Below the pieces are notes generated by a model. That model was given only the letters and a program-made list of their open reading frames with translations. It made no database searches and had not been told where the DNA came from. The translations under genes were made by a program, and so were the position numbers. A DNA stretch of 64,000 nt, taken from assembly GCA_016125225.1 (NCBI GenBank), contig WGME01000017.1, positions 62,001-126,000 on the forward strand, read 5' to 3'. The DNA is from a bacterium (GTDB lineage Bacteria; Planctomycetota; Planctomycetia; Planctomycetales; Planctomycetaceae). Positions 24,386 to 31,798 of this stretch are shown piece after piece; the first letter of the stretch is position 1; every line of letters starts with the position of its first letter.

Positions 24386-25063
24386 TCAGGGAACCGGGGG
24401 AGTTTTCGGACCGTCATGGGCCGTGGCGACCTCGGTCAATCGTCCCTGTTCAAGAATGAGCAACCGGTCCGCGAGTTCCCGAGCTTCCGCCTGATTATGT
24501 GTCACATGCAGGGTGGTCACGCCGGTTTTCTGCTTGAGATCACGCAGCAGCAGGTACATTTCCTGCCGCGTGACGTCATCGAGGGCACTCAGGGGTTCAT
24601 CGAGCAACAGAATCCGGGGCGGAATGGCCAATGCCCGGCCTAACGCCACCCGTTGGGCTTCCCCACCACTCAACCGATCAACGGAACGCGTCAGCACTGA
24701 TGTGATGCCCAGCAATTCGGCGAGTTCCGTGACCCGGCGACGTTGTTCAGTGGCCGCGATCCGCCGTAATCGCAAAGCGAAACTGAGATGCTCCGCGACG
24801 GTCAAACCCGGAAACAACGCGAGATCTTGCGGGACGTAACCCATCTGCCGGTCGGCAGGATCGTGACGTGTGATGTCGACGTCATCGATGAGAATCCGCC
24901 CGGCACGCACCGGCCGCAGTCCACACAAGGCTTCCAACAGCGAAGTTTTCCCCGACCCCGTGCGGCCCATCAGCACGACATACTCTCCAGCCGCGATCTG
25001 CAGGGAAATGTCGGTTAGCTGGAAGTGCCCCGCCGTCAATGAAAGGCGATCGACGACGATCAT
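24386..25063 (-). CDS. ABC transporter ATP-binding protein, molybdate/tungstate type
   Basis: 225 residues, ATPase of an importer. Walker A GRTGSGKTS (33-41), signature LSGGEAQRVALGRAL (131-145), Walker B ILLLDEP (151-157), D-loop SALD. ATG 25063 is chosen because its ATGA overlaps the permease stop and GGAGCG lies upstream; an in-frame extension to 25087 would overlap more. The closest families are ModC, WtpC and CysA. The molybdate-specific C-terminal TOBE domain of ModC is missing at this length. Substrate is inferred only from the partner permease. Confidence 0.88.
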   Translation of the reverse strand: MIVVDRLSLTAGHFQLTDISLQIAAGEYVVLMGRTGSGKTSLLEALCGLRPVRAGRILIDDVDITRHDPADRQMGYVPQDLALFPGLTVAEHLSFALRLRRIAATEQRRRVTELAELLGITSVLTRSVDRLSGGEAQRVALGRALAIPPRILLLDEPLSALDDVTRQEMYLLLRDLKQKTGVTTLHVTHNQAEARELADRLLILEQGRLTEVATAHDGPKTPPVP

Positions 25064-27672: not shown

Positions 27673-27789
27673 TTGAGAATCCTTGTCTGCCCCGGTGCTT
27701 GACCCTGTGTTCACTGACGGGATATCGTGACGCCTGCACCCGTCAGACACAATTCTGCTGATCGACTCCCTGAAAGATCAAGGCGTTCC

Positions 27790-28959
27790 ATGATGCCCCG
27801 TATTGGATTACCTCTGAATTGGCCGTTCTGGTCGCTGGCCCTGTTCGTATTCTGCTGTGGTTGTGCCGCTGAAATTCCGCAGGAAACCGCCTCAAAAGAT
27901 GCGGCCCCACCGGCGACCGATGCCACCGCAACGATGCCCCGCGAGACCGAAGCCGCACCATCTGGCGGACTCAAACGCATCATCATTCTGGTCAATAATC
28001 CGTCGCCCTTCTGGGATGCCTGCCGCGCCGGGGTACTCGATTCCAATGGCGAATTGAACCTCGAAGCCCAGGGGTATGTCGCCAGCATGGAAGTCCCCGA
28101 TGGCACGATTCAGGGCCAGCTCGATCGGCTGCGGCAGTTCGCCACGCAAAGTGACATAGCTGCCATCGGCATTTCGCCGCTGGAATCGGACAATGCTGCC
28201 ATCGCCGATGAACTGAAAAAGCTCAAGGACAAAGGCATTCCGGTCATCACGTTTGATTCCGACCTCGATCGCGAACGCTTCCGTGACCTGCGGTATGCAT
28301 TCCTCGGCACTAACAATCGCGGCGCGGGCGAAGTACTGGGTCAATGTGCCCAGGTTCTGCGACCCTACGGCGGGGAATATGTCACCTTCGTCGGCCGGAC
28401 GGGGGCACAGAATGCGATTGAACGGATTGATGGCTTCGCAGCCGGGGCCGGAGAGAAGTTCGTCCAGCAAGACAAAATGGCGGATGGTGGCGACCGCAGC
28501 AAAGCTCAGGAGAACGTTCGCAACGCCCTCCGCAACCATCCCGACTTGAACAATTTGGTGGGCATCTGGTCGTACAACGCCCCGGCAATTGTCGATGTTG
28601 TCCGCGAACAGAAAGTGCGGAACAAAGTCGCAGTCACCGTCTTCGATGCCGAGCCGGGCACGATCGCCGCCATGAAGCAAGGCGATGTCGATGTGCTGGT
28701 GGTGCAGGACCCGTATGCGATGGGCATGCAAAGCGTAAAACTGCTGGCCGCGTTGCTCAAGAAAGACGACGCGACTGTCAAAGAAATGTTGCCCACTTAC
28801 GGTGAACCGGATGGCGACCTCTTCGACACCGGGATCAAAGTCGTCGTGCCGAGTGACGATTCACCCATCAAGGCCGACCTGTTCCCCGGCAAAGTGCAGC
28901 ACATGACCTTGCCCACCTTTGAAGCCTGGTTGCAGAAGTACGGCCTCACGGGATCATGA
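27790..28959 (+). CDS. Ribose-type ABC transporter substrate-binding lipoprotein
   Basis: 389 residues. Start ATG 27790 has AAGG seven bases upstream and yields a lipoprotein signal (PFWSLALFVFCCGCA). The mature part is a periplasmic binding protein type 1 fold like RbsB/XylF: RIIILVNNPSPFWDACRAG, IGISPLESD, GIPVITFDSD, LGTNNRGAGEVLG, FVGRTGAQNAIERIDGF, LVGIWSYNAPAIVDVVRE and VVQDPYAMGMQSVKLL. It probably binds a sugar or related small molecule. The permease gene follows, separated by two hairpins. No ABC ATPase gene of this system is in view. Confidence 0.9.
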   Translation: MMPRIGLPLNWPFWSLALFVFCCGCAAEIPQETASKDAAPPATDATATMPRETEAAPSGGLKRIIILVNNPSPFWDACRAGVLDSNGELNLEAQGYVASMEVPDGTIQGQLDRLRQFATQSDIAAIGISPLESDNAAIADELKKLKDKGIPVITFDSDLDRERFRDLRYAFLGTNNRGAGEVLGQCAQVLRPYGGEYVTFVGRTGAQNAIERIDGFAAGAGEKFVQQDKMADGGDRSKAQENVRNALRNHPDLNNLVGIWSYNAPAIVDVVREQKVRNKVAVTVFDAEPGTIAAMKQGDVDVLVVQDPYAMGMQSVKLLAALLKKDDATVKEMLPTYGEPDGDLFDTGIKVVVPSDDSPIKADLFPGKVQHMTLPTFEAWLQKYGLTGS

Positions 28960-28979
28960 TGCCGATTTATGATCCCGTG
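28947..28979. repeat. Hairpin spanning the binding-protein stop codon
   Basis: CACGGGATCAT (28947-28957) pairs perfectly with ATGATCCCGTG (28969-28979). The stop codon overlaps the first arm. It is followed at once by a second hairpin (28980-29007). Confidence 0.65.
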
Positions 28980-29012
28980 AAGCCCAGGGATTGCTATCCC
29001 TGGGCTTTTTCT
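28980..29012 (+). terminator. Palindrome copy C with T-run; intercistronic terminator-like hairpin
   Basis: AAGCCCAGGGAT (28980-28991) pairs with ATCCCTGGGCTT (28996-29007) around TGCT, and TTTTTCTT follows. This has the form of an intrinsic terminator lying between the binding-protein and permease genes, and could keep permease levels below binding-protein levels. It is almost identical to the repeat at 23530. Confidence 0.65.
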
Positions 29013-29022
29013 TGGAGATTTA

Positions 29023-30669
29023 TTGTCGTTCAACCGGGAACGCTCCGCCGTGAATTCCCTGCCCTTCTGGCGCCGTCACGAATTCAATTTGCTGCTCGCG
29101 GTGATTGCCGTTGCGATTGGCACCGCCGTGCTCGACCCGCAGCATAATTACTGGCGCGATCCGGGGGCTTCGGCTTGGGATCTCGTGCGACAATGGTCGA
29201 TGCTGACGCTGTTTTCACTGGGGGCCGCCGTTGTCATTATCTCCGGCGGAATCGATCTTTCGACGGGTTCGGTCATTGCCTTCAGTGGCACCGTCTGTGC
29301 GGCGATTCTGCTGTGGCTGGTACCGGAGGCGATGCTCAAGGCGGAACCGTTACCTGCCTGGGCAATCACCCTCGCTATCTGTGGAACCTTGCTGAGCGGC
29401 TTTCTCGTGGGGAGTCTGCATGCGTGGCTGATTACGGTGGTGGGTTTGCCACCCTTCGTGGCAACACTGGCCACGCTGGTGGGACTGCGGAGTCTCGCGC
29501 GGGCAATCGTCGAATCGCTCACGGAACATCTCAAAGGGAATGCGAACACTCAGATCGACATCTTCGACGGCAAGTTCCGTTATCTCTCGCAATCGGTCTG
29601 GATTCCCGCCGCCCTCGTAATTGTCCTCGGCATCGGACTGTGGTTGATGCTCAGCCGCACGGTGTTGGGCCGGCATCTGTATGCGCTCGGGGGAAATGAG
29701 CAGGCCGCGCGACTCAGCGGCATCCGCACCGATCGGCTCAAATGGGTGGCGTACTGCATCTCGGCCATGCTGGCGTCCTTATCCGGCGTCCTTTACATCT
29801 GCGATCAAGGGGTCGCCGATCCGCAAATGCTTGGTCGGGGCTATGAACTCAACGCGATTGCCGCGGCGGTGGTCGGTGGATGCAGCCTGCAAGGGGGCAT
29901 CGGCACAATTCCGGGCACGCTGCTGGGGGCTCTCTTTCTGCGGGCTGTGAATGATGGCATCTCCAAAATCATCAAAACCGGGGCCGATGTCTATGAGGGT
30001 TTGATCGTCGGCGTGGTGGTGGTCTTCGCCGTGGTCTTCACGCAGTCGGAATCAACGTCACGACAACGCCGTTCATTGTTCGCCGGGGGTTTAGGACTGG
30101 TCACTCTGCTGAACCTCACCTTGATTGCTGGCGTGCTGATGGCACTGGTCGGGGTCAAACTGCTTGGCAGCCACGTGCAGATGAATGCCGTGTGGCTGTC
30201 GTCATTCACCATGCTCGCGGTGCTGGCGCTGCTGCTGTTGTCCCGCTCGTCTCTATCACCTACCGCCTGGCGGAAATGGGGTGTAGCCTGGGCGATCGTG
30301 ACGGTGGTCGCCGGTATGGGGCTCGATCGGGCCTACCCAGCGATTCAGACCAACCGCGCGATTGCCGCTGTGACAAGCGCCGGGGGCAAAGTGGTGCGGA
30401 ATGATCTCGGCGTGGTCGCGGACTTCAGTGACACCGGCCTCACCGATGAGCAATGGACGTCCATCGCCCCAAAACTGAGCGGGCTCAGCGGTCTGGCCGA
30501 AGTGCGGTTGAATGACACCACCGTGACCGACCGAGCCGTCGATGCCCTCGAAAAACTGCCGGGACTCAAGCGGATCGATCTGAGCGGCACGGCGGTTTCA
30601 GCGACCGTCAGTCAACGCCTGCGTCGGAAGTTCCCGCAAGCGACGATCGTGCTTGAACCTGCGAAATAG
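29023..30669 (+). CDS. Ribose-type ABC permease fused to extra membrane helices and a C-terminal LRR domain
   Basis: 548 residues. Residues 1-345 are an RbsC/BPD_transp_2 permease: ISGGIDLSTGSVIAFSG (72-89), GLPPFVATLATLVGLRSLARA, GRHLYALGGNEQAARLSGI (217-234), GRGYELNAIAAAVVGGCSLQGGIG. RbsC proteins usually end here. Three more hydrophobic stretches follow (about 352-380, 388-407, 418-432), then residues 441-548 form a short leucine-rich repeat domain (LAEVRLNDTTVTDRAVDAL, LPGLKRIDLSGTAVS). TTG 29023 is the start: GGAG lies six bases upstream. This extension is unusual for the family; its side of the membrane is not known. Confidence 0.88.
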   Translation: MSFNRERSAVNSLPFWRRHEFNLLLAVIAVAIGTAVLDPQHNYWRDPGASAWDLVRQWSMLTLFSLGAAVVIISGGIDLSTGSVIAFSGTVCAAILLWLVPEAMLKAEPLPAWAITLAICGTLLSGFLVGSLHAWLITVVGLPPFVATLATLVGLRSLARAIVESLTEHLKGNANTQIDIFDGKFRYLSQSVWIPAALVIVLGIGLWLMLSRTVLGRHLYALGGNEQAARLSGIRTDRLKWVAYCISAMLASLSGVLYICDQGVADPQMLGRGYELNAIAAAVVGGCSLQGGIGTIPGTLLGALFLRAVNDGISKIIKTGADVYEGLIVGVVVVFAVVFTQSESTSRQRRSLFAGGLGLVTLLNLTLIAGVLMALVGVKLLGSHVQMNAVWLSSFTMLAVLALLLLSRSSLSPTAWRKWGVAWAIVTVVAGMGLDRAYPAIQTNRAIAAVTSAGGKVVRNDLGVVADFSDTGLTDEQWTSIAPKLSGLSGLAEVRLNDTTVTDRAVDALEKLPGLKRIDLSGTAVSATVSQRLRRKFPQATIVLEPAK

Positions 30670-30680
30670 AAACGCAGACA

Positions 30681-30795
30681 GGGCCGGGATGCTACCCCCG
30701 TCCGCACCTGAGAGCCAAATGTTTAGGGCTGCTTCTGTTAGGACCTGACCCGGTTCGCACGGCCTCACCGCAGAAAGAGGTAGCCTCTCGGCCCC
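30681..30795 (-). ncRNA. ffs: Signal recognition particle RNA, small bacterial type (4.5S)
   Basis: On the minus strand GGGCCGAGAGGCTACC at the 5' end pairs with GGTAGCATCCCGGCCC at the 3' end, and the apical part carries the SRP domain IV core: GGGTCAGGTCC, a loop TAAC, then AGAAGCAGCCC. GGTCAGG and AGCAGCC form the conserved asymmetric and symmetric loops that bind Ffh. The length of about 115 nt fits the short form without an Alu domain. The apical loop is not the usual GGAA/GNRA. The gene lies 40 bases after the NUDIX gene on the same strand; ends are estimated from pairing. Confidence 0.87.
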
Positions 30796-30835: not shown

Positions 30836-31348
30836 TCAAGCCAGTCCGCGAGATTCCCGCGACAGATACCACGCCAACAGGGTCCGATAGCAGGGGCTGA
30901 AACGCTCGGGTTCCTGCTCCAGTCGAGCTGCAACGTCCGCCAGTGGCAGCCATTCGATCGCCGCGATTTCACCCGGATCGGGCGTGGGAACCGCGTCCGT
31001 TACCAGACGATAAAGCTGCGTGTGCTCGTAACAGGTTTCGGGACCGGCAGGAAATTTGGCCAGGAATTCCAGGTGGCCTCGGAGTCCCAATTCTTCCCAG
31101 AGTTCCCGCTCCACGGAGGAGTCATAGTCTTCCCCACTGCTGACATGCCCCGACGCGGACGACGTAAAGCAGAGCGGATATTGATCTTTCGTCGCCGACC
31201 GCAGGTGCATCAGCAGTTCGCCCGTTGGCCTGAACACAAACACATGTACGGCCCGATGCAGCCAGTTTTTCGCATGCACCTCGGAACGCGGAGCGACACC
31301 GATGACCCGATCCTGCGCGTCGCAAACGTCAAACAATTCTTCGGTCAT
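30836..31348 (-). CDS. NUDIX hydrolase, isopentenyl-diphosphate isomerase-like
   Basis: 170 residues with a perfect NUDIX box: GHVSSGEDYDSSVERELWEELGL, in parts G-x5-E-x7-RELWEELGL. The opening EELFDVCDAQDRVIGV and LHRAVHVFVFRPTGELLMHLRS are typical of the IPP isomerase/YfcD-like subgroup. True type 1 IPP isomerases need further Cys and Glu residues; a YfcD-type pyrophosphohydrolase is as likely. ATG 31348 is chosen over an upstream ATG at 31387 because GGAG precedes it and the family homology begins there. It diverges from csrA. Confidence 0.87.
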   Translation of the reverse strand: MTEELFDVCDAQDRVIGVAPRSEVHAKNWLHRAVHVFVFRPTGELLMHLRSATKDQYPLCFTSSASGHVSSGEDYDSSVERELWEELGLRGHLEFLAKFPAGPETCYEHTQLYRLVTDAVPTPDPGEIAAIEWLPLADVAARLEQEPERFSPCYRTLLAWYLSRESRGLA

Positions 31349-31597
31349 CAGGCAAGCTCCGGTTCCTGAGAGAACAGCGTGCATCATTATCGACCAATGG
31401 TTTTGCGGTCAAATTGTACAAATCTCGCTGCGGGACCCTCCACTACGAAGATGACAGCTTTCGTAACATTTGTTGGGCCAGCCATTTGCGACGGGATCGC
31501 AACTCCGGTTCCGAACTGGCACGGCAACTGCATACTACAGTATTCCATGCTCGAATCTGGGAGATCTGAGCGAAATTCAATCTGGAGGGATTCTCAA

Positions 31598-31798
31598 ATG
31601 CTCGTCCTGACCCGTCGTACAGACGAATCCATTCTGATCGGTGACGAAGAAGTCGTGGTGCGTATTCTCGAAATCCGTGGCAATCGCGTCCGAATTGGTA
31701 TCGAAGCACCGGCCAATGTCTCGATTCGTCGCGATGAAGCCCCACCACGAGAGTTTGAGTTCCAGATGTCTCGTGAACTTGAGCTGGTTCAGTCCTGA
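31598..31798 (+). CDS. csrA: Carbon storage regulator CsrA
   Basis: 66 residues: LVLTRRTDESILIGDEEVVVRILEIRGNRVRIGIEAP is the CsrA fold (given in parts: LVLTRR, ESILIGD, VRIGIEAP). CsrA is a dimeric RNA-binding protein that recognises GGA in hairpin loops and usually blocks ribosome binding. Start ATG 31598 has a strong GGAGGG site ten bases upstream, which itself contains two GGA motifs, so self-repression is possible. Its R44-like arginine is present (VSIRRDEAP). glgC follows 203 bases downstream on the same strand. Confidence 0.96.
   Translation: MLVLTRRTDESILIGDEEVVVRILEIRGNRVRIGIEAPANVSIRRDEAPPREFEFQMSRELELVQS

Follow-up and report, generated by a model that had tools for sequence, protein, structure and literature searches.

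The gene at 29023..30669 on the plus strand of the window, the whole stretch of 64,000 nucleotides that was analyzed, encodes an importer permease that continues in frame into a leucine-rich repeat (LRR) domain, and comparison with relatives indicates that the fusion is genuine and conserved, on an importer of an otherwise familiar type. The gene is a single open frame of 548 amino acids, uninterrupted from a TTG start at 29023 to a TAG stop ending at 30669, and direct reading placed GGAGA 4 bases 5' of the start codon. Our tentative proposal, to which we give somewhat less than an even chance, is that this permease of an RbsABC-type importer has 13 helices and that its LRR lies in the periplasm and offers a docking site, most likely to the partner binding lipoprotein.

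The first part of the protein, residues 18-345 (29074..30057, plus strand), is a permease core of the RbsC type. Residues 54-336 matched PF02653 (BPD_transp_2) with an E value of 6.7e-42 and 143.9 bits against a cut-off of 26.8. The NCBIfam models for ribose, allose, and galactose permeases each matched below their cut-offs and ended at or before residue 340, all matching models ended at or before residue 347, and no Pfam or NCBIfam family at its cut-off covered the part past the core. With every matching model ending by residue 347, the tail is outside what is known of such permeases; the preliminary description, in which RbsC-like permeases were said to end near residue 330, was right that the extra tail is real. 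The likeness to the RbsC, AlsC, and MglC permeases (PF02653) extends over the whole core and includes an RbsB-type gene beside the permease and, in many relatives, an RbsA gene beside it. The difference is that the NCBIfam models of these permeases have nothing past residue 340, while the window protein adds two ancestral helices, helix 13, and an LRR.

A structure predicted with AF2 from a 44-row alignment (mean pLDDT 87.7, pTM 0.82) supports a type II importer core with the BtuC/HmuU fold. The predicted core aligned with HmuU (Z 16.9) and BtuC (Z 16.3) over 255-272 residues, to about residue 318; the alignments end near this residue, and pLDDT was below 50 at residues 316-325. BtuC, HmuU, BhuU, and FhuB all share the core fold (Z 13-17), with about 10-15% identity over the aligned part, and to our knowledge they serve other substrates and have no such tail. 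Searches of PDB sequences with the permease and with its alignment gave no match at 0.01, and plain Foldseek with the full-length model gave none at an E value of 0.001.

Past the core, the AF2 model contained helices at residues 355-384, 389-408, and 413-452, after which strand-helix units ran to residue 543. Helices 11 and 12 (residues 355-408, 30085..30246, plus strand) were also found, as hydrophobic stretches read by eye, in untailed relatives throughout the sampled planctomycetes, and in these relatives helix 12 is followed by a short positive C-terminal end, for example RVWESRR. By this comparison, two extra helices past the core are an ancestral part of the planctomycete form of the permease. 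Since helices 11 and 12 are common to untailed relatives, only helix 13 (residues 413-440, 30259..30342, plus strand; AF2 and alignments), which was seen in tailed relatives only, and the LRR are special to the tailed forms. The preliminary description had reported three extra helices and an LRR tail; its architecture, its LRR call, and the fusion itself stand, but the novelty of all three helices does not.

The LRR domain occupies residues 441-548 (30343..30666, plus strand) and, judged by sequence profiles and the predicted fold, consists of three strand-helix repeats with an N-terminal helical cap. Searched by itself against Pfam, the tail of the window protein matched LRR_4 best, at an E value of 0.048, below the cut-off. 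LRR_6 was matched in 11 of 15 tails when E values up to 10 were admitted, the best being 8.7e-5. A profile of the 15 tails matched the LRR of ribonuclease inhibitor in the PDB with an E value of 1.4e-18, which is the sum of seven weak repeats, none below 0.05 alone. Predicted models of the LRR had pLDDT values mostly of 87-97, and in the window protein pLDDT was 91-97 in blocks across the LRR and 82 at the extreme end. Modelled alone, the tail reached a pLDDT of 88.7, and Foldseek gave a probability of 1.00 to the LRRs of an immune receptor (3un9), ribonuclease inhibitor, and NLRP1. Residues 448-548 aligned to LRR domains with Z 7.7-10.5, which is middling for a repeat domain. Together, the profiles and models support an LRR fold for the tail domain. 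The strand-helix fold is that of the ribonuclease inhibitor type (ribonuclease inhibitor, NLRP1, tropomodulin) over about 80-95 residues, but those LRRs are mostly much longer and belong to soluble eukaryotic proteins, whereas the window tail has three repeats and is carried on a permease.

When genome contigs were searched at the protein level, 62 relatives of the permease were obtained, all in planctomycete records. In 14 of these (L001-L014, mostly labelled Schlesneria) the frame continues through the whole tail; the others, read by eye, end shortly after two more hydrophobic stretches, and L060 earlier still. This search had also used a seed peptide derived from the tail, so the survey was redone with the core only. 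The core was present in 76 of the 170 genomes of the window's family (threshold E 1e-60). A separate profile search (E 1e-15) found the tail in 23 of the 170, and the permease-LRR architecture clusters around Schlesneria. Tail and permease share one frame in 22 of the 23 tailed genomes; the exception is G080, in which the core runs off one contig end and the tail begins at the end of another contig. No tail match away from the permease was found at E 1e-15 in the 170 family genomes. A chimera or frame error joining two genes, which had been raised as a possible artifact, is ruled out by these counts, and a search of the same 170 genomes for relatives with separate genes found none. In literature searched at the level of titles and abstract openings, mostly outside subscription journals and bioRxiv preprints, no permease-LRR fusion was described. 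Two untailed permease copies (G157:C1:5073461-5074456 and G163:C1154:12376-13377) each contain one in-frame stop, and may be pseudogenes or reflect sequencing errors.

Phylogenetic trees were used to examine the origin of the tail. In a tree of the cores, the tailed rows required three changes; constraining them to one clade cost 3.0 log units (p-AU 0.278), a test from which L086 (G080), scored as untailed in the first core tree owing to its contig ends, was dropped. The core tree left out L062, L099, L114, L115, and L118-L120, which are duplicates or fragments, and merged 17 rows whose cores were identical. A tree of the core plus the binding protein, in which G080 (as L133) was scored as tailed, required two changes; this was a quick tree, built without L028 and L139-L143 (cut or duplicate) and without loci lacking an adjoining binding protein (L002 and L003 among them). 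Several branches in the trees were long. One gain followed by one or two losses is therefore allowed, though not proven, and a single origin of helix 13 and the LRR around Schlesneria was not rejected by the core sequences. The permeases of L048, L049, L052, L056, and L058, which are titled Candidatus Kuenenia stuttgartiensis, grouped among Planctomycetaceae/Pirellulales, and these labels may be wrong.

Selection on the tail was estimated from 12 hand-chosen pairs of tailed relatives by Nei and Gojobori counting with our own script. The dN/dS ratio was 0.06-0.34 for the LRR and 0.007-0.17 for the core, with several dS values saturated; the LRR ratio exceeded the core ratio 1.4- to 9-fold, and at least about twofold in 10 of the 12 pairs. 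Values for helix 13, which was represented by 32 codons, were noisy (0.10-1.12, with one pair undefined). Identity to the window protein in L001-L014 was 31-40% in the tail versus 62-70% in the core. By these measures the tail is maintained by purifying selection and evolves faster than the core. The faster change of the tail would also fit a lineage-specific ornament, in which a copied LRR became attached to the permease and does little or nothing specific, as would the nearby nested untailed relatives that do without it and the LRR profile matches in four other genes of the window genome. However, the reading frame has been preserved, the LRR ratio did not exceed 0.34 in any of the 12 pairs, and six G, D, and T positions are invariant in 15 of 15 tails. 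An ornament is thus an unlikely explanation.

Loop charges were used to place the LRR relative to the membrane. RbsC of E. coli has 10 helices with both ends inside; a literature search on RbsC topology found no paper. With helix limits set by hand from the AF2 helices, averages over the 44-row alignment showed more K+R than D+E at the N-terminus and in two loops, 344-356 and the coupling loop at 213-235; the same excess was seen in the 408-414 loop of the tailed forms and at the C-terminus of the untailed forms. Other loops conflicted with this arrangement: 314-323 and 172-192, both placed outside, were net positive, and 139-143, placed inside, was negative in tailed forms. An N-terminus inside, ten core helices, and helices 11-13 would put the LRR in the periplasm, as most of the loop charges suggest. 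The permease probably has 13 transmembrane helices. If one extra helix did not cross the membrane, the LRR would be cytoplasmic and could act on the ATPase or as a sensor. The two conflicting positive loops and the uncertainty of the AF2 model around residues 316-345 would be compatible with that arrangement, but the positive loop before helix 13, the positive C-terminus of untailed forms, and the outside position predicted for the end of a protein with 13 helices and an inside N-terminus all argue against it, making a cytoplasmic LRR very improbable.

Directly upstream of the permease gene is a gene for an rbsB-like substrate-binding lipoprotein (27727..28959, plus strand; PF13407, Pfam E 2.2e-41), in which a lipobox was recognized by direct reading. 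Its real start is probably the ATG at 27790 or at 27793. Between this gene and the permease is a terminator-like element, a perfect 12-bp hairpin followed by a T run (28980..29007, plus strand), and RNA folding of the 63 bases at 28960-29022 gave -27.8 kcal/mol with a z of -5.25. A consensus scan did not list the hairpin. A conserved internal terminator was considered and is not general: a hairpin of -9 kcal/mol or lower before a T run occurred in 21 of 84 other rows, with the chance rate uncontrolled, and only one of these, in L112 (-22.3 kcal/mol), came near the -23.9 kcal/mol of the window. According to PMC9045158, the stoichiometry of importers in Clostridia is set by internal terminators of this kind located after the binding-protein gene. 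On the other side, directly 3' of the permease gene, the minus strand at 30688-30784 matched the bacterial small SRP RNA with a score of 40.3 against an Rfam gathering threshold of 40. The genes at 30836-31387, which we take to be NUDIX-like, and at 31379-31798, the second half of which presumably resembles CsrA, adjoin each other.

The mature binding protein of the window begins with the lipid cysteine and the sequence CAAEIPQ (27862..27882, plus strand). A lipobox was present in the partner binding protein of almost all relatives read, tailed or untailed, and the motif C-x(2-4)-[IVL]-P-[KQRE] was found at the mature N-terminus in 21 of the 23 tailed genomes (G068, G141, G143, and G145 being read via loci with identical permease cores). 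Other variants were CASEIPK, CEPNVPK, CGEPSIPR, and CPGEVPQ; the two tailed genomes without the motif were G137 (CDTSAPQ) and G147 (CGDGASSK). Among the rows of the tree set, the motif occurred in 19 of 21 tailed versus 1 of 65 untailed rows, where the rows scored as motif-less include L019 (no lipobox), L117 (unreadable), L024, L033, and L121 (where the reading after the cysteine spanned fewer than 8 residues), and two rows read by eye, L017 and L026. The motif class was chosen after the first motif reading of the relatives; in rows read once the pattern was fixed, it was present in 5 of 5 tailed (L133, L136, L138, L205, and L207) and in 1 of 19 untailed (L122, with L117 left out). Two tailed loci, L002 and L003, have no binding-protein gene beside the permease, and in the matching genomes G140 and G142 the gene is on another contig. 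The genes upstream of the L002 permease presumably encode relatives of an FAD oxidoreductase and phosphonoacetaldehyde hydrolase.

The motif is not a general lipoprotein signal. Under a strict filter, 18 lipoprotein candidates (including two readings of the same protein) were found in about 522 kb of the window genome, and only the two RbsB-type proteins carried it. An earlier filter, applied mostly to the loci of relatives, gave the motif in 9 of 22 candidates: 8 partner binding proteins and 1 paralog from the window genome. Nor is it a general feature of these binding proteins, since in a paralogous Tat-type binding protein it was found in 2 of 17 tailed genomes (G000 and G136) and in 0 of 12 readable untailed ones (the reading covered 30 of 39 matching genomes, and the untailed row L202 fell short of the N-terminus). 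Three further paralogs from tailed genomes come close to the motif, ending in LPP. The paralog of the window genome starts CSGEIPQ, though the permease of its own operon is untailed. This operon (L078:5436-9161, G000:C41) is a second complete sugar importer, comprising the Tat-type binding protein, an RbsA, and the untailed permease. A third permease (G000:C37:60226-61125), binding protein (G000:C37:335262-336035), and RbsA (G000:C36:64405-65580) are scattered and unlinked, and may form another, dispersed importer.

The association of tail and motif represents only one or two independent evolutionary events on the quick tree, and so small a number does not allow a test. Because a single origin of the tail was not rejected (p-AU 0.278), the motif can be explained by common descent. 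The LRR might then be periplasmic and dock some other partner, such as an envelope or cell-wall protein, with the motif a clade signature inherited along with the tail. LRRs bind many kinds of protein, and G137 and G147 are tailed and lack the motif. We hold this explanation to be only a little less likely than our own. Against it, G140 and G142 retain the motif despite the unlinked genes, and the nested untailed lineages (L015/L016, L018, L135, and L137) are without it.

The partner ATPase is probably encoded elsewhere in the genome. The preliminary description was correct that the window has no ATPase gene for this transporter: there is no double-domain RbsA in the same operon or anywhere in the window, and the sole ABC ATPase match (24434-25018) is in an ORF adjoining a different permease. 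The genome as a whole contains three RbsA-like proteins, three PF02653 permeases, and three PF13407 binding proteins. In many untailed relatives rbsB, rbsC, and rbsA are consecutive, and one RbsA of the window genome (C41:320435-322015) shared 61-66% identity with five RbsAs whose genes directly follow the permease genes of relatives, versus 36-44% for the other two. It was 58-72% identical to the RbsAs of tailed relatives where the match was full length. This ortholog shows that the ATPase is not truly missing. The gene stands alone; the nearest permease and binding protein on its contig are those of the second importer, about 53-57 kb away. We infer from these similarities that the C41 RbsA serves the tailed permease. 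The preliminary description had also called the lack of a nearby ATPase unusual for RbsABC systems, which does not hold for the tailed forms: in the 23 tailed genomes, the RbsA ortholog adjoins the permease in 9, is elsewhere in 13 (in six of which the listed match does not span the whole query), and is unlisted in one (G139, with its permease gene at a contig end). Of the 13 unlinked orthologs, 12 are on other contigs, that of the window genome included, which in draft genomes need not mean a large distance; the other, in the single contig of G148, is 1.5 Mb away. Two genomes of the same genus, G007 and G008, both keep RbsA next to the permease, so the RbsA of the window genome probably left the operon recently.

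Under the docking proposal, the window protein would be the membrane subunit of a planctomycete sugar importer of the RbsABC type, with a type II fold. Its ancestor would have had the 10 core helices plus two more, with both ends cytoplasmic, and a lineage in the Schlesneria area would have gained helix 13 and the three-repeat LRR, bringing the LRR to the periplasmic face, where it could let another protein dock close to the mouth of the permease. The preliminary description had suggested that the tail may recruit a partner, which is plausible; the most likely client would be the partner binding protein, a membrane-anchored lipoprotein. The LRR may grip the segment just past the lipid cysteine, C-x(2-4)-[IVL]-P-[KQRE], and so hold the binding protein near the permease, with ATP hydrolysis supplied by the RbsA encoded elsewhere in the window genome. 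Docking of the tether is the leading mechanism because helix 13 would hold the LRR right at the surface of the membrane, from which the tether also starts.

In OpuA a binding domain is fused to the translocator. Both in OpuA and in GlnPQ the binding protein is held by the translocator through covalent fusion, whereas in the window system it would be held by a docking domain and a lipoprotein tether. For GlnPQ, an excerpt of PMC8025302 describes binding domains fused to the translocator. In its most specific form the proposal is that the LRR is a clasp that captures the lipid-proximal tether through [IVL]P[KQRE], as a non-covalent counterpart of the fused domains of GlnPQ and OpuA, and that tail and tether evolved as a pair; we regard this form as rather unlikely.

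In tailed genomes, the ATPase gene is often away from the operon. The usual picture of type II sugar importers is of a compact permease to which binding proteins, free or tethered by a lipid, come and go. A conserved protein-binding domain borne by the permease, beside the anchor of the binding protein, would if confirmed be a new means of keeping the parts of an importer together, and the pair of motif and domain is small and directly testable.
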